Source of the DNA: a virus
Strand: one strand, 5' to 3'
Virus record (IMG/VR): IMGVR_UViG_3300048912_000010
Span: 1-22,115 of that record
Length of the DNA stretch: 22,115 bases
A program made the position numbers and the translations under genes. Below, one piece after another: positions 1,108-8,700 of this stretch (position 1 is its first letter; each line of letters opens with the position of its first letter). Below the pieces are notes generated by a model. It ran no database searches and was not told where the DNA came from. It worked only from the letters and a program-made list of their open reading frames with translations.

Positions 1108-2439
1108 TTACACCTTTGAAATTCCATAAACTTTGATACTTCCCTGAGCCAAGAAATTAGAGCCCCCACTCCATAAAAGACGGAACCCAGTAGCGACATT
1201 TGCCGCTGTATGTGCTCCATACCTTCCTCCACCTTGAGGAATGCCAGCGTTGTTAGAAGAAATACCAAAAGACAGAACACACTTTGCAAACGCCACCGCA
1301 CTATTTACATTACTGACCCTTATTGTTGCCGATCTAGGCTGATTAGCAACACCTCCTGCAATTACTTCAATAAATGAAACACCATTACTTCCAGATGCAG
1401 GGTCATCAATTTGATAAAATTGATAATTATTACCAGCATCTGCAACCCCGGCAACAGCTAACCTAATTCTCAAGTTTTCTGCGGCGGCGCTATTTATTCC
1501 GTCAATTTGTATTTCATAATCATCATATGTAGAACTAAATGTGTTTAGAAAATCTACATTTGCTGCCGCTGATGGAGTAAGCGGGCCTGCAATTAATGTA
1601 GATCCTGGCGGAGTAACAGCTAGGGCGCGGCCATCGGCTCTCTGGTATTTTACCAATCGGACTACGCCAGAAGGCTCACCACGGAATGTAGCACTGTCTC
1701 CAGCAGCAGTTACAATGTTTGCGCCTGTTGGAAGGATTAGGCTTGCTCCATTTGTAAGCGTTAAAATTCCATCAAATACAACTTCCCTCAATGCTCCAGA
1801 ATCGAGAGTAATACTTGTTATGGTCGTCGTCCCTGTGACATGCAAAAGATTGCCAGTTGCAGTCTGCAAATTGATCGAACTAGCACTAGGGATATCTGTC
1901 CCTCTTACTTCATCTTGAGCATAACCAACATGTTTCTTTGAGAAGCTTGCTGCTGACCCATTTGAAATCAAAAACCCTAAGGATTGTGCTGGTAGAGCAG
2001 TGCTGAATGATAGTTGATCAGCATAATTCTTAGTGATCGAATCTAGTCTGAATTCAGTTCCATTGAAAATCGCTTTATATGTTTGTCCCGATGCCAACTC
2101 CCCAGAAATCAGCGCAGCACCAGATACAGACCGCAGATTAATTGCGCCAAGACCGGATACATCAATTGTAGATGCTCCAGTATTTGAAACGACAGGAGAA
2201 AACACAATCGTCATATTTGTTATATATGACACTAGGGTAGGCGTAGGAGTAAGCGTATAAGCATTCGCTACGCCTCCATTAGTGCCGCCAACTAGGACAG
2301 CGCCAGTAATGCCAGCAAAGCTATTTTTCAAAGTCGATTTAATAAGGCGCAGATGGTCATCGCCACGGCTTTTAGGGTCAGAGCCAGTAGGATTTACCGA
2401 ATCTAGGGCGCTAATATAGTTGCCTACTTCCAATGACAT
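1108..2439 (-). CDS. Tail fibre / receptor-binding protein
   Basis: A 443-aa protein. The N-terminus (MSLEVGNYISALDSVNPTGSD, residues 1-21, and GDDHLRLIKSTLKNSF to about residue 42) is the conserved virion-attachment segment seen in many phage tail fibres, with the aspartate-rich G-D-D-H-L-R-L-I-K helix. The middle is low-complexity Ser/Thr/Ala/Gly beta sequence. The C-terminal ~150 residues (YDDYEIQIDGINSAAAENL to KVYGISKV) match the compact tip domain found on many fibres, including the terminal K-V-Y-G-I. The start is ATG 2439 with AGGAG six bases upstream. The next gene downstream is a fibre-assembly candidate. A plus-strand HNH gene abuts its ribosome site. Receptor specificity cannot be inferred. 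Confidence 0.85.
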   Translation of the reverse strand: MSLEVGNYISALDSVNPTGSDPKSRGDDHLRLIKSTLKNSFAGITGAVLVGGTNGGVANAYTLTPTPTLVSYITNMTIVFSPVVSNTGASTIDVSGLGAINLRSVSGAALISGELASGQTYKAIFNGTEFRLDSITKNYADQLSFSTALPAQSLGFLISNGSAASFSKKHVGYAQDEVRGTDIPSASSINLQTATGNLLHVTGTTTITSITLDSGALREVVFDGILTLTNGASLILPTGANIVTAAGDSATFRGEPSGVVRLVKYQRADGRALAVTPPGSTLIAGPLTPSAAANVDFLNTFSSTYDDYEIQIDGINSAAAENLRIRLAVAGVADAGNNYQFYQIDDPASGSNGVSFIEVIAGGVANQPRSATIRVSNVNSAVAFAKCVLSFGISSNNAGIPQGGGRYGAHTAANVATGFRLLWSGGSNFLAQGSIKVYGISKV

Positions 2440-2447
2440 GCTATACT
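2420..2447 (+). promoter_or_regulatory. Sigma70-like promoter for the plus-strand HNH gene
   Basis: TTGCCT (2420-2425) and TATACT (2442-2447) are separated by 16 bases and read rightward, placing a start site about 20 bases before the HNH ATG at 2475. The same bases on the other strand contain the AGGAG ribosome site of the tail fibre gene (2446-2450), so one short segment serves opposite strands. This is based on consensus match only. Confidence 0.5.
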
Positions 2448-2474
2448 CCTTTTATATTCTTTGATTGGGATCAT

Positions 2475-2981
2475 ATGGAAAATTGGCGAGATATTGAAGG
2501 CTATGAAGGATTTTACCAAGTAAGCGATCTTGGGAATGTACGAAGAATTGGAAGAGCAAAAGGCTCCGTAGTTGGAGCTATGCTTAAGCCATTCACTTCC
2601 ACCCATGGTTATCTTGTTGTCGGTCTCTGCAGGGAGAAAATTTCTAAAAAATTTTCTGTCCATCGTCTTGTTTTGTCGGCTTTTACAGAAAACAAAGGCA
2701 AGAATCTTGATGTTAGACATAAAGACGGAACAAGGATCAACAACAAACTTGAAAACCTTGAATGGGGCACTCGATCTGAGAACATGCAAGATGCTGCAAA
2801 GCATGGAAGAACAAATCGAGGGTTGAAAAATTTTAGCAACAAACTCTCTGAAAATGATGTGCTTTCGATTCGAGATGATGGTAGATCGCATTCCGCTATT
2901 GCTAGATCCTATGACATAAATCCAAGCGTAGTATCTAGAATAAAATCTAGGAAAGCATGGGGATGGCTTGAAGCTGGATGA
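2475..2981 (+). CDS. Free-standing HNH homing endonuclease (NUMOD4-HNH_3 type)
   Basis: A 168-aa protein on the strand opposite to all neighbours. Residues 1-20 (ENWRDIEGYEGFYQVSDLGNVRR) are the NUMOD4 motif. Residues ~50-95 hold the HNH_3 core: KFSVHRLVLSAF, then VRHKDGTRINNKLENLEWGT, with the paired His and Asn expected for metal-dependent nicking. The C-terminal part (AIARSYDINPSVVSRIKSRKAWGW) is a helix-turn-helix/NUMOD1-like DNA-binding segment. The start is ATG 2475, preceded by GGGA and a promoter candidate; the frame is open further upstream to 2433, but the NUMOD4 motif begins at this ATG. It lies in the 3-kb tail region between adaptor and tail fibre and ends 2 bases from the adaptor stop. 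It is likely a selfish free-standing homing gene. Confidence 0.9.
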   Translation: MENWRDIEGYEGFYQVSDLGNVRRIGRAKGSVVGAMLKPFTSTHGYLVVGLCREKISKKFSVHRLVLSAFTENKGKNLDVRHKDGTRINNKLENLEWGTRSENMQDAAKHGRTNRGLKNFSNKLSENDVLSIRDDGRSHSAIARSYDINPSVVSRIKSRKAWGWLEAG

Positions 2982-3624: not shown

Positions 3625-4566
3625 TTAGGCCGGTTCAAAAATTTGATACGCAACAATCGATGTGTCCGTGCCGCTGCTGCTTAGAATAGTGAATGAAGTT
3701 GCTGCAACTCGGGCAGAAATACGAAGGAATCCAGGCGTGCCGCCCGGAGTTTGGCAGCATACAAAAATCCTGCTATTGGCAGTGACGTTTGTAGTATTGA
3801 CAGTTACAGTACCGCCAACCAATGTAGCGACTCCCATTGTCCCATTTGATCCTTCTTTAATGCGCAGCCCTGCACCAAGAGTATTCACCGCCACATTGCC
3901 ATTGTTGAACGTGTGTTGGGCAGAGCCTTTTGAAGCGTAGGTAATGCCGATATTCGTATCGGAACCTTGCGCAGTCACCGAGGGGGATGCAGTAGCGATA
4001 GCTCCAGTGATATTCAGGAAGTTGACGGCAGTTGCGGTATGGCTAACACGAAGTTGCTCAAGCGTGCCGCTAGAAGTCAGGAAGCGATGAGCACCGGCAC
4101 CTTTTGTGTAATGCCCATAATTGATATCAGTATCCGAGCCTTCAGTGCCAACTTTGGGTTCGCCAAGCGTAACTGTGCCAATAGCCTGAATGCGATTGAC
4201 TGCATTGGTTGGAGCTTGTGAGATTCGGAGAGATTCAGCATTGGCTAGGCCACCAAGCGAAACTTGACCCGTAGCGGTCAAAGTGCTAAATAAGACAGCA
4301 TTCCCATCTGCCGGATCTTCCAGAAGGATATCAGTGATCGTGCGGGTAGTGATGCTTGCGCCGCTGATTTGAATCGTATAACGGCCATCGGCTGCATAGA
4401 ATTCAAAGTAGCCGTTTGCATCAGTCGTGAGGGGATTTGCGCGAGGTGTAGCACCATTATCGGAATAGATCGTTACTGCGCCACCACCAAATGCAGTTAC
4501 AGTAACTGAAACGCCCACAGCAGGCATTCCACTATCCAACAACACGCTATCGTAATATTTCTGCAT
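3625..4566 (-). CDS. Putative virion fibre/decoration protein with carboxypeptidase-regulatory-like N-domain
   Basis: A 313-aa protein. Residues ~1-70 look like a CarboxypepD_reg/Ig-like fold: G-V-S-V-T-V-T-A, then LTTDANGYFEFYAADGRYTI, the D-x-x-G-x-Y/F-x-F turn followed by G-R-Y-T-I. The middle contains two imperfect repeats around QGSDTNI / EGSDTDI with a following Y-x-x-K-G-A/S, suggesting a triple-helical fibre shaft. The C-terminus (FLRISARVAATSFTILSSSGTDTSIV) is a beta sandwich-like tip. Its ATG overlaps the preceding stop as TAATG, so it is translationally coupled. Because it sits before the adaptor, it could be a head fibre or tail appendage. The specific role is unknown. Confidence 0.55.
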   Translation of the reverse strand: MQKYYDSVLLDSGMPAVGVSVTVTAFGGGAVTIYSDNGATPRANPLTTDANGYFEFYAADGRYTIQISGASITTRTITDILLEDPADGNAVLFSTLTATGQVSLGGLANAESLRISQAPTNAVNRIQAIGTVTLGEPKVGTEGSDTDINYGHYTKGAGAHRFLTSSGTLEQLRVSHTATAVNFLNITGAIATASPSVTAQGSDTNIGITYASKGSAQHTFNNGNVAVNTLGAGLRIKEGSNGTMGVATLVGGTVTVNTTNVTANSRIFVCCQTPGGTPGFLRISARVAATSFTILSSSGTDTSIVAYQIFEPA

Positions 4567-4871
4567 TAGATCCTCCCGGGCCAGATCCTGAACATTTTGT
4601 TGTCAGGATCATTCACAATCTTTCGCAAGTGCGATTGATCATTCATAACCTCTTGGAAGGTCACTCCATTATCATTCATGTACTTCTCAATGATAATGAG
4701 CGGTATCTTCGCAGCATGGCGCATTTCTGAACTGCCATGATTTCCAGCATTATGCATCGCCTTCGCATATTCTGCAATCGGTGTGCAATCCTGGCTTCGA
4801 CCGATAAACATTTTGCCGTCATCGATCTTAATCTTTGTGGATACCGGATCGTTTTTATTCATGTTATTCAT
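4566..4871 (-). CDS. Conserved small phage protein, function unknown (101 aa)
   Basis: A 101-aa soluble protein with GRSQDCTPIAEYAKAMHNAGNHG, then a helical M-R-H-A-A-K-I-P-L-I-I-I-E-K-Y segment and a hydrophilic C-terminus ending FRIWPGRI. Similar small proteins occur among phage structural genes, but I do not know a function for this family. The chosen start is ATG 4871, preceded by GTGGGTG; a GTG at 4880 in frame would add three residues and a later ATG at 4862 would remove three. The stop overlaps the next ATG (TAATG), coupling it to the 313-aa putative fibre. No catalytic or membrane motif is visible. Confidence 0.65.
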   Translation of the reverse strand: MNNMNKNDPVSTKIKIDDGKMFIGRSQDCTPIAEYAKAMHNAGNHGSSEMRHAAKIPLIIIEKYMNDNGVTFQEVMNDQSHLRKIVNDPDNKMFRIWPGRI

Positions 4872-4886
4872 CGCACCCACAATTAA

Positions 4887-5201
4887 TTAGCAATCCTCAA
4901 GCGGTACCACATTCACAGTACCAGCAGCGGAATCCTGAATAGCAGCTACATGAGTAACGCCACGAGGGCATTCAAGAATCAGCGATTCACCAGGAACCAC
5001 CATTGCATCAGTTGCCAGCGCGGTCAGGCCGACAGTACCAAGGCGAACGTGAGCATTTGCAGTCGCAGTAATACGGTAATAGCGTGCAATCTCGCCGCTA
5101 GATGCTACTGGCAGCGCAGAACTAGCAGAAGCTGCGCCAGTCGTGATATTTACGCCTGTAGCGAAAATCATCACAGAGCTAGTATTGGTCGAACGATACA
5201 T
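4887..5201 (-). CDS. Small beta-rich structural protein, function unknown (104 aa)
   Basis: A 104-aa Ala/Thr/Ser/Val-rich protein with alternating hydrophobic beta segments (YYRITATANAHVRLG, MVVPGESLILECPRG, HVAAIQDSAAGTVNVV). It has only two cysteines and no signal peptide or membrane segment. The pattern suits a small virion protein such as a head-completion or decoration protein. AAAGGATTCGATATG provides a good ribosome site. It is the first gene after the cUUCGg terminator, so its expression probably depends on read-through. Function is not assigned. Confidence 0.65.
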   Translation of the reverse strand: MYRSTNTSSVMIFATGVNITTGAASASSALPVASSGEIARYYRITATANAHVRLGTVGLTALATDAMVVPGESLILECPRGVTHVAAIQDSAAGTVNVVPLEDC

Positions 5202-5741: not shown

Positions 5742-6602
5742 TCAGAGAATATCTACGATAGCACCGCCAGATTTCGGATTGCGAGCCTCCAGTGTGTACT
5801 CGCCGATGATCTGGCGACGGACGCTATCGCCAGTCTTAGCAAGCTCGTACTGATTCAGCGGACGCAGCCAGGCGACAGCCCACATATCGGACTGGAGAAC
5901 GAATACATCACGAGCACGTTGGAATCGGTTAGGAACTGCACGCAGTTGGCCAAAGTCTGAAATATAAATATCCAGTGCGGCAGTGACAGATTTGTCCTCG
6001 GCTTTATCGAAACGGGTTGCGTTGCCGGTAAAGGTCGAGAACGTCTGTTTAGCCAGTGGCCCCATCATGATCGTGTCGGGATTGCCGCCAGAGGTAAATA
6101 CCTTTTGCAGTACGTCTTTCAGCAGTGCTTCGGTAAATGCACGCTGAGTACCATCGGTCTGAGCCACGTTGGTAACGTAGTTCGGAGCGACATAGCCAGC
6201 ACCTGCATTCACGTTTGCCGAATCAACCCAACCTACCAGACCACGCGAACGGCGCGGAGCAGTAGCGGAGACAGCATTCTGAGTCAGGCCAACTTCGATA
6301 TCGCGCTTCAGTTCTTTCGAGCGCAGCGCCATCTGATAAGCCATTTCAGAATTGCGACCAGCCTTGTCAACGGATTCCTGAGAGCCGGAAACAGATGCGG
6401 TCTTAGAGGAAATCTGAGTGCGATTACCCAGGCGAACAGTTGGAGTGCTAGCCGATGCGGTAGCATCATCGCCTTCAACCTGTTCATTGTTCGCAGCGGT
6501 AGCCAGATCTTGAGTCTGCCATTCGTGCAGCGTAGCAGTCGCCTTGGTCTTGGCTGCCATGTTGAAGAATGGAGTATCCAGAGGTGCAATGTTGTAAATG
6601 GC
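5742..6602 (-). CDS. Major capsid protein, exon 2 (joined to 7592-7657)
   Basis: This is the main part of a split capsid gene. The frame runs from GCC at 6602 to the stop at 5742 and gives 286 residues; with the 22-residue first exon the spliced product is 308 aa. The joined sequence reads GNREDLTD then AIYNIAPLDTPFFN, which restores the N-terminal arm shared by the DUF5309/SU10-type capsid family. Further family features are the helical A-Y-Q-M-A-L-R-S-K-E-L-K-R-D-I-E segment (about residues 108-123 of the spliced protein), the R-R-S-R-G-L-V-G-W motif, and the C-terminal LRPLNQYELAKTGDS. The ATG at 6560 is internal and not the true start: used alone it would lose 36 conserved residues and would lack a convincing ribosome site. 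The capsid follows the scaffold gene, as in P22-like phages. Confidence 0.9.
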   Translation of the reverse strand, partial: AIYNIAPLDTPFFNMAAKTKATATLHEWQTQDLATAANNEQVEGDDATASASTPTVRLGNRTQISSKTASVSGSQESVDKAGRNSEMAYQMALRSKELKRDIEVGLTQNAVSATAPRRSRGLVGWVDSANVNAGAGYVAPNYVTNVAQTDGTQRAFTEALLKDVLQKVFTSGGNPDTIMMGPLAKQTFSTFTGNATRFDKAEDKSVTAALDIYISDFGQLRAVPNRFQRARDVFVLQSDMWAVAWLRPLNQYELAKTGDSVRRQIIGEYTLEARNPKSGGAIVDIL

Positions 6603-7591
6603 CGATTATGTTATCGGTAGGCTCTTTATCCTACCTTCTAGTACTTTCGCACTAGTCCAGACTATATCATCGCTTTCGCGCCGGGCACTCGTGGACGGAT
6701 TATCGTTTCCTCACCGTCTAGTCGTTGGAGCTTCTACATCCCTCGGCTTATTTAGCCTACATATGTAGCTTGCCTGCTGATTGCCCAATCCGACAAATTT
6801 TCAAACATTCACGCTTACCGTTACCAGTTACGTTGTAGTTTTGTCGGCTCTAAGGGGTTTCCAGCAATTCACCCAGTTTGCAATTGATGCCTATTGTGAT
6901 GACACTTCGGACAGAGAACTTCACTATTAGTCGGATCATAACGATGCTCAGGATGCTTTGCGAAAGACTTCACATGATGAACATGCAATTTCACTTTCAC
7001 GCCGCAGCATTCACAGGTTTTACCGTTCTCAACTCCGCATTCTTGGCATTTGTTGCCAGCTTGCTTGAGTGCGTTTTCACGCCATACTCTTGCTTGCCAA
7101 TTCTGCCTTGCGCGTCTGTTGATATCGGTGATTCCACCTCGCCAGTTTGGATTCTCTGCGCCGTACTTTGCATTCTCGATCCTCGATTTCCTGAGGTTTT
7201 CTAGATGCTCTTCGCTGAAAATTCGTCCTGGCTTTAACCTATGATTGCCATGCTCTTTCAAGATGATTCCATGTTCTTTAAGGCGCTTATGAACTATCGT
7301 TTCGCCTACTCCGAAGTCATTTGCGATATCTCGCATAGACTTCTCTTGATACATGGACTCAAGAACTTCTCTTGGCGGATCAAAACTCCTACGGCCCCCA
7401 TTTTTGTTCAACTGGATGCCAAGGCGCTTGAGTGTTAATCGGACTGTTTCAGCATTCACGCCGTACATCTTACCGATCTTCGCACAAGAGTAACCTTGAT
7501 AAAGCTTCTCTAATTCCTCTTTCGTTACTTCAAACTTTGCCATTCTCTGCCCCATCAACAATAAACGTCAATGGGACTATTATATCAATTA
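6603..7591 (-). ncRNA. Group I self-splicing intron (989 nt) in the capsid gene
   Basis: The conserved core is readable after the HNH stop codon. P: AATTGCTGGAAACCCC (6854-6869). Q: AATCAGCAGGCAAGC (6768-6782). R: CCAACGACTAGACGG (6714-6728). S: GATGATATAGTCTGG (6657-6671). R and S supply the P7 pairing GACTA with TAGTC. P1 is exon GGAT plus intron TA paired with TAGTCC near 7578, leaving the U-G wobble exactly at the exon 1 end. The intron ends in G at 6603. Two P9-type hairpins follow the core: CTAGTGC with GTACTAG around a GAAA tetraloop, and GGTAGG with CCTACC. The layout matches subgroup IA-like phage introns. An alternative junction one base later also keeps frame (Asp-Ser instead of Asp-Ala) but lacks the terminal U-G pair. 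Confidence 0.93.
6869..7543 (-). CDS. Intron-encoded HNH homing endonuclease
   Basis: A 224-aa protein inside the group I intron. Two helix-turn-helix segments come first (YSCAKIGKMYGVNAETVRLTLKRLG, about residues 14-40, and SMRDIANDFGVGETIVHKRLKEHG, about 62-88). A NUMOD3-like stretch follows (FSEEHLENLRKSRIENAKYGAENPNWRGG). The C-terminal nuclease has zinc-binding CQECG and CECCG pairs, the HVHHVKSF motif, an Asn in TNSEVLCPKCH, and final His residues. It would cut intronless capsid alleles to spread the intron. The stop codon (6869-6871) merges into the first conserved intron helix, so the gene sits in a peripheral loop. The start is ATG 7543 behind GGGGCAGAGA; ATG 7555 is possible. Transcription is presumably from the late operon. 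Confidence 0.92.
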   Translation of the reverse strand: MAKFEVTKEELEKLYQGYSCAKIGKMYGVNAETVRLTLKRLGIQLNKNGGRRSFDPPREVLESMYQEKSMRDIANDFGVGETIVHKRLKEHGIILKEHGNHRLKPGRIFSEEHLENLRKSRIENAKYGAENPNWRGGITDINRRARQNWQARVWRENALKQAGNKCQECGVENGKTCECCGVKVKLHVHHVKSFAKHPEHRYDPTNSEVLCPKCHHNRHQLQTG

Positions 7592-7657
7592 ATCCGTCAG
7601 GTCTTCACGATTACCGATAGCGGCAGTCGTCAGGAAGGTATTAGTTGGAGCAGTCAT
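7592..7657 (-). CDS. Major capsid protein, exon 1 (22 codons)
   Basis: ATG 7657 has a strong AAGGAG 8 bases upstream, overlapping the scaffold stop (TAAGGAG). The 22 codons end in GNREDLTD, the most conserved N-terminal motif of this capsid family; the frame then meets TAA at 7589-7591, just inside the intron. The exon ends in T7592, which can form the U-G wobble at the 5' splice site (exon GGAU with intron GUCC). Confidence 0.9.
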
Positions 7658-7668
7658 GTTATTTCTCC

Positions 7669-8700
7669 TTACAGAAGATTCATAAAGACATTCGCAGCAG
7701 CGTCAATGGACCCTGATTTCTTCAGGTCTTTCATTGCGCGAGTGCGATTATCAACAGTGTTTTGTTGTGGCACGCCGGGACGCTCTACCATGGTGGGCGC
7801 AGCAGTGACCTTCTTAGTCGCTTCTTTCGCTCGTGCCATGAGGCTGTCATATAGCATTGCCTTGCGCGCCATGAGAATCACGCGATGATCACCGAGATTG
7901 CCAATTTCATCTGGAGTGAATTCATTAGCCATCATGTGATCACGGATCTTTTCTCCATCAGCTTTCACTTTCGCTGCATCTTTCCATTCTGGGAGCTTGG
8001 CGTAGAGTTTCTCTAGCTGCTCCGCATCGTAGGCTTTCTTTGCAGCGGTCTGTTCCTGCTGATATTGCGCTTGCAGTCGTTGCAATTCCTGTTGAGCCTT
8101 GCCCATCTCCGCTTGTCTTAGTTCAAAGATGCGTTTTTGGGAAAGGTATTCGACAGGATCAGAATTCAAAAGCTCTTGCGTCAGCACTTTCTCTTGCTCA
8201 CGCAACAGGCTTTCATTCGTGATCATGAAGTTACTCAGTTCACGTGCGTAATGCTCACGTTCAGCTTTGGCTTGATTCGCCTGAGCTTCAGTAGCCTTAC
8301 GTTCTTCAGCAAGGCCCATCGTCTTTTGCGTGTAATCCGCTTGACGTAGGCCGCTCTTATACAGTTCCGGCAATTCCGACTTCTTGATTTGCACATCCTT
8401 GCCATCTACTTGGATGGTGAATGTGTCCTCTTCGGGCTGCCTTTCCTGTACGTTCTCTTCTTCCGCAGCCAGACGAGCGGCAATATCCTCTTCGGATTCG
8501 TCGCCAGTCTCTTGTGCTACTTCCTGTTTCTTCTCAGGCTCTTTCGCTTGAACTGGAGCAGGTTTAGCTGCTTCAGGCTCGGCAGAAGGATTCAGGATCG
8601 AAGCAAAGGCACTGGCCGCCTGATCGATGCCACCACCAATGGAACCTTCGCCATCAGCATCGCGAAAGATAAAGCGCTTGCGGAATTTATTGATGTTCAT
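7669..8700 (-). CDS. Scaffolding protein
   Basis: A 343-aa, very acidic and Glu/Gln/Ala/Lys-rich protein. Residues ~20-95 are low-complexity acidic linker (EEDIAARLAAEEENVQE). A short ordered segment follows (FTIQVDGKDVQIKKSELPEL). Residues ~115-260 form a long coiled coil (KATEAQANQAKAEREHYAREL, QQELQRLQAQYQQEQTAAKK). The C-terminal tail (RAMKDLKKSGSIDAAANVFMNLL) is a basic/amphipathic helix of the kind that binds the capsid protein. Length, composition and place between portal and capsid match P22-type scaffolds. AAGAGGACATT precedes ATG 8700. Its stop overlaps the capsid ribosome site (TAAGGAG), so expression is coupled. Confidence 0.88.
   Translation of the reverse strand: MNINKFRKRFIFRDADGEGSIGGGIDQAASAFASILNPSAEPEAAKPAPVQAKEPEKKQEVAQETGDESEEDIAARLAAEEENVQERQPEEDTFTIQVDGKDVQIKKSELPELYKSGLRQADYTQKTMGLAEERKATEAQANQAKAEREHYARELSNFMITNESLLREQEKVLTQELLNSDPVEYLSQKRIFELRQAEMGKAQQELQRLQAQYQQEQTAAKKAYDAEQLEKLYAKLPEWKDAAKVKADGEKIRDHMMANEFTPDEIGNLGDHRVILMARKAMLYDSLMARAKEATKKVTAAPTMVERPGVPQQNTVDNRTRAMKDLKKSGSIDAAANVFMNLL

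Follow-up and report, generated by a model that had tools for sequence, protein, structure and literature searches.

The capsid gene and its two exons

How does a phage make its major capsid protein when the gene is interrupted, after only 22 codons, by 989 nt that contain an intact endonuclease gene? The question is raised by a stretch of 22,115 nt (positions 1 to 22,115 of IMG/VR virus record IMGVR_UViG_3300048912_000010), referred to here as the window. The initial annotation, made by reading the letters, had proposed a group I intron carrying an HNH endonuclease. The element is very probably a group I intron that is mobile and encodes an HNH homing endonuclease, and we infer both its self-splicing and its homing from comparisons of sequence.

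Exon 1 (7657–7592, minus strand) encodes MTAPTNTFLTTAAIGNREDLTD and ends in ...CTGACGGAT; AAGGAG (7670–7665, minus strand), which probably serves the capsid gene as its ribosome-binding site, lies 7 nt upstream of the ATG at 7657. Exon 2 (6602–5742, minus strand), which starts AIYNIAPLDTPFFN... and whose protein opens with AIYNIAPLDTPFF, consists of 286 codons and a stop codon and encodes an SU10_MCP domain. Both are intact reading frames, with exon 2 undisrupted, and rejoined they encode the 308 aa first annotated, whose coordinates are correct to the base. A simple ORF list gives a truncated capsid ORF of 272 aa starting at 6560, the same product that had been expected from a standard gene caller.

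The host protein is, as annotated, a major capsid protein and belongs to the SU10 type (Pfam PF17236, E 3.3e-95). Exon 2 matches phrog_1328 (major head protein; PHROGs) and the solved capsid 9ny2 aligns to residues 1–307 of the spliced protein (E 2.2e-60), with no gap at the junction. The SU10_MCP domain and this full-length match assign the protein to the SU10/LUZ24-type (LUZ24/PaP3) capsids, and the neighbouring genes (scaffold, portal, terminase and a virion structural gene) are those of LUZ24/PaP3-like podoviruses. The ungapped junction indicates that capsids of this type normally include the 22 exon 1 residues. In 78 of 78 uninterrupted relatives the motif GN(R/K)EDL is kept, with S/T/A at the next position and D/N (one E) after it. 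Since exon 1 is present in all of these and in the solved capsid chain, it can be soundly inferred that capsid supply would depend on splicing.

Intron boundaries and ribozyme core

The closest IMG/VR relative, with 97% of exon 2 residues identical, is the intronless contig L002, in which GNREDLTD is followed directly by AIYN with no insertion. When the unedited window is compared with L002, the blastn alignment ends at 7592 and restarts at 6602, while positions 5000 and 5001 of L002 are contiguous. Both splice sites are thereby set without recourse to an intron model, exactly where the exon boundaries had been placed, and they delimit an intron of 989 nt (7591–6603, minus strand) whose last base is G.

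Intron_gpI (RF00028) is the sole RNA family matched by Rfam in the window. The match covers P3–P9 (6949–6638, minus strand) and, at 63.8 bits (E 2.6e-14), exceeds the gathering score of 50, so that the covariance search bears out the group I assignment. The P, Q, R and S elements and the P7 pairing, said earlier to be readable, were all located on the minus strand: the core strands of P (6874–6859) and Q (6782–6768) and, from the Rfam match and the core alignment, R with the 5′ strand of P7 (CUCCAACGACUA; 6730–6719) and S with its 3′ strand (GAUGAUAUAGUCU; 6671–6659). The core helices are all intact in the window; P7, the guanosine-binding helix (GACUA/UAGUC), is invariant across the core alignment.

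In an RNAalifold analysis of 14 introns, 28 of 45 predicted core pairs change on both sides, including pairs in P3, P5, P6, P8 and P9. A further covarying helix (columns 171–173 with 198–200) lies between the 5′ strand of P7 and the 3′ strand of P3. An extra helix at this position (P7.1) is a mark of subgroup IA, and the covarying helix tentatively suggests this subgroup. In a comparison of the intron DNA with phage records similarity was confined to short core segments and reflects no more than the conservation of group I cores.

A family of introns at one capsid codon

At least 35 other IMG/VR contigs have an insertion at the same capsid codon; both exons are visible in 31 and four end before one of the exons. 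This set, in which the window is not counted, combines the loci from pattern scans with 28 HNH-family loci and contigs L036, L066, L101 and L107. In IMG/VR, 15 stretches fit a search pattern in which a stop codon comes after the end of exon 1 (GGNAAYMGNGARGAYYTNNSNRAYTAA), and capsid exon 2 lies downstream of the matches wherever the contig is long enough. Among loci from this pattern and earlier scans, 12 of 13 tested pass the Rfam group I threshold; the thirteenth (L089) repeats the L099 contig in shorter form. Two matches in bacterial/archaeal genomes (L245 and L246), with neither capsid exon 2 nor an HNH or Rfam match, were rejected as chance.

Strict peptide patterns taken from the window HNH protein alone gave no match. 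A scan with an alignment of eight HNH proteins (A2) found the 28 HNH-family loci, every one of them at this codon of this capsid gene. Of 14 newly scanned HNH loci, ten are above the Rfam threshold; for the most divergent members the intron call is based on the site and length, on the terminal G and on the exons alongside. Identity of the host capsids to that of the window falls as low as about 36%, and the introns measure from 255 to 1031 nt. The terminal G noted in the window (position 6603) recurs in all of the readable introns (33/33, window included).

Occupied sites have a characteristic exon 1 end. G(G/A)AT is found at 27 of 27 distinct occupied sites and at 19 of the 178 distinct empty sites among the matches listed (about 11%), while T at −1 is found at 27/27 and 90/178, respectively; Fisher tests give p 1e-21 for G(G/A)AT and p 7e-8 for T at −1 alone, on related sequences that are not independent.

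The consensus of the intron 3′ end occurs in 19 contigs and in 13 of these lies in a capsid gene, five of the SU10 type and eight of the phrog_267 type (four assigned by tests against PHROGs and four by similarity); because the pattern was built on capsid introns, 13/19 is no estimate of capsid preference. In the eight contigs L095, L096, L100, L102, L104, L105, L106 and L111, the group I 3′ ends fall in one conserved region of phrog_267/Phage_capsid_4 capsids. In L108 a group I 3′ end (at 8437) lies at another, C-terminal site of an SU10-type capsid gene, which therefore has at least two intron sites.

P1 and the candidate guide sequence

The candidate internal guide sequence of the window, GUCC (7577–7574, minus strand; intron +15), pairs with GGAU of exon 1. 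The U–G wobble first read at the 5′ splice site stands as far as the U and the U.G pair are concerned; the P1 helix around it has only 4 bp (GGAU/GUCC) and is overlapped by a hairpin of 12 bp (GUCCCAUUGACG.../...UUGAUGGGGC; 7577–7548, minus strand; about −16.5 kcal/mol). Candidate readings of this predicted hairpin are P2 or a competing fold. The short P1 is the weakest point of the group I assignment in the window.

Across the family P1 covaries with the exon (GGAU/GUCC, GAAU/GUUC, GAGGAU/GUCCUC and GCGAAU/GUUCGC), and covarying versions of the upstream guide sequence are found in L270, L272 and L273. Four introns (L036, L066, L116 and L121) have a second guide sequence, of 6–7 bp, between the ORF and the core (19 nt before the latter), which places the ORF inside the P1 loop. 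The window intron is without the segment that holds this downstream guide sequence. The L036 intron (4002–4997) has two candidate guide sequences, at +14 before the HNH ORF and at +715 after it, and is possibly an intermediate between the two layouts.

A P1 of 4 bp that competes with a 12-bp hairpin, together with the missing downstream guide, could mean that the element is a real group I intron that has become defective in splicing, either as a dying allele or as a minority variant of the sample. This is unlikely: the core helices and both exons of the window are undamaged, and L247, L107, L250, L251, L257, L259 and others share the upstream arrangement of GUCC. As it is common to these introns, the arrangement is probably functional.

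The ORF of 272 aa would also allow a reading with no splicing at all, in which the capsid is translated from the internal ATG at 6560 and the upstream segment is the insertion of an unrelated HNH gene. This seems very improbable, given that the insertion falls exactly at a codon boundary, contains an intact ribozyme core with conserved covariation and has the identical site in 35 other contigs, and that the N-terminal residues which such a start would omit are retained in the solved capsid and by each of the 78 uninterrupted relatives.

The HNH endonuclease

The intron contains an intact ORF of 224 aa (7543–6869, minus strand), most likely starting at ATG 7543, with its stop codon inside the ribozyme core. 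The protein consists of two HTH-like segments, a GxxNPNW segment and an HNH/zinc ribbon. The Pfam HNH score (25.4 bits against a threshold of 21.4) and the presence of the catalytic and zinc-binding residues uphold the HNH endonuclease of the initial annotation. LHVHH, N207, CxxCH and H220 are invariant in eight relatives and dN/dS of the ORF between relatives is 0.06–0.10. Against 50,697 phage records the protein had one weak partial match only. The putative enzyme may nick, may cut or may be inactive.

A hairpin precedes the HNH start in the window, L036, L066, L116 and L121, with GGGG or GAGG in its 3′ arm; in the window GGGG lies just upstream of the start. In T4 introns a hairpin holds back translation of the ORF. 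By analogy, the hairpin before the HNH ORF could possibly hold back HNH translation.

Signs of mobility, transfer and decay

Site-specific mobility is indicated by sequence footprints as well as by the single site of the 28 HNH-family loci. The introns of L259 and L260 are 99.6% identical, while the first 60 nt of their flanks are 93% and 97% identical and the whole flanks 73% and 75%. A near-identical intron with short similar flanks is as predicted by homing with short co-conversion, and the pair is read as the footprint of a recent jump. Between the window and L002 no sign of co-conversion was seen, the identity of the flanks (92–96%) being like that of the wider region.

HNH and capsid distances correlate across the family (Mantel r 0.83, p 0.0001). 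In L121 and L251, where the capsids are 92% identical and the HNH proteins 66%, the HNH and capsid trees disagree with high support. The correlation and this local conflict together point to an old association with occasional transfer. The intron of L247, sister to that of the window, agrees with the capsid phylogeny of the window in both trees. The window is a single metagenome contig, yet an assembly chimera with the intron of another phage is scarcely credible, given this agreement and the same-base insertion in 35 independent contigs from many samples, 31 of them with both exons.

The relatives include empty, ORF-bearing, frameshifted-ORF, ORF-deleted and ORF-less alleles at one site. The HNH ORF of L115 is frameshifted. 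Two introns correspond to longer ones with an internal deletion: L274 (392 nt) to L257 (948 nt), and L118 to L121. ORF-less introns are found in L112, L118, L119, L122 and L123, and those of L112, L119 and L122 are compact.

The favoured explanation, that of a mobile, self-splicing group I intron, would run as follows. Based on its structure and the comparative data, the ribozyme in the capsid transcript would excise itself, so that codon 22 (GAU) is followed directly by codon 23 (GCC) and the transcript again encodes the full major capsid protein of 308 aa. The intron-encoded HNH protein would nick or cut intronless capsid alleles near G(G/A)AT|N in co-infecting relatives, and recombination would then copy the intron in with short flanking tracts. 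Later loss of the ORF, and possibly of the intron, would complete a full homing life cycle across the relatives.

Other features of the window and of L002

Two frames of about 258 codons overlap almost fully on the same strand (20616–19833, minus strand). The first encodes a C5 cytosine methyltransferase (PF00145, E 6e-33); for the second the match is to phrog_1008 (E 9e-24). Both frames are open over about 230–268 codons in five divergent phages (L275–L279), where the second protein is 34–44% identical to that of the window; most of these records annotate one frame only. The two frames are a possible conserved, fully overlapping gene pair.

A NUMOD4/HNH_3 endonuclease ORF (2433–2981, plus strand) lies between two minus-strand structural genes. 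L002 is without about 538 nt exactly at this ORF (window about 2440–2977), which makes it look like a recent free-standing insertion. An HNH_3/AP2 endonuclease ORF (15247–14765, minus strand), with no Rfam intron match nearby, is apparently also free-standing. L002 has an extra ORF of 263 aa with collagen-like G-x-y repeats (6724–7515), absent from the window at about 4865–4880.

Comparison with known introns

The T4 td, nrdB and nrdD introns and those of SPO1/SP82 have group I cores with homing endonucleases, and ORF-less and ORF-bearing versions occur at one site. The SPO1/SP82 intron enzymes are HNH proteins. The T4 and SPO1/SP82 introns interrupt genes of nucleotide metabolism and polymerase genes, and their ORFs lie in other loops than that of the window. 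Both groups are covered by reviews (PMC2988022, PMC3984707).

For the mycobacteriophage LittleE, Pope et al. (2013, PMC3706429) reported a major capsid gene interrupted by a probable group I intron, with splicing demonstrated by RT-PCR and N-terminal sequencing. As in the window, exon 1 ends in U, the intron ends in G and there are a putative homing endonuclease and an intronless relative. Unlike the phage of the window, LittleE is a siphovirus with an unrelated capsid context, and its endonuclease, which the figure legend labels HNH and the text LAGLIDADG-like, is encoded on the opposite strand; in contrast to the family described here, no same-site family is described in PMC3706429. A capsid-gene intron of lactococcal Tuc2009 is also cited there.

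Group I introns were also reported in MCP genes of metagenomic crAss-like phages, where they complicate annotation (Yutin et al. 2021, PMC7886860). These belong to another phage group with another capsid, and the Zeta group has several introns per gene; unlike for the window family, no single-site homing series is described in the excerpted text. As cited in PMC3517423, the group I intron of LUZ24 (Ceyssens et al. 2008) occurs in a podovirus of the group (LUZ24/PaP3/tf) with the same capsid type as the window but interrupts the DNA polymerase gene.

In the open-licence literature no paper was found on the capsid intron site or the HNH family of the window. Capsid-gene introns were already known (LittleE, crAss-like phages, Tuc2009); the lineage of the window and its site fidelity appear to be undescribed. 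The element is of an ordinary class, in a family whose sequences give unusually clear natural evidence of homing.

Implications

An ordinary gene caller reports the window capsid without its first 36 residues, and major capsid proteins are common markers in the classification of uncultivated phages. The series of alleles, in an essential and highly expressed gene, would make the homing rate, the cost of the intron and the demand on splicing measurable, both through comparison of sequences and with simple assays. Tentatively, and with rather less than even confidence, the HNH family may be a lineage dedicated to one codon of SU10-type capsid genes across capsids down to about 36% identity, in which the position of the ORF relative to the guide sequence has switched between after P1 (as in the window) and inside the P1 loop (L036, L066, L116 and L121), with L036 carrying both guides. 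If so, the targets of the HNH enzyme would be capsid genes of competing phages.
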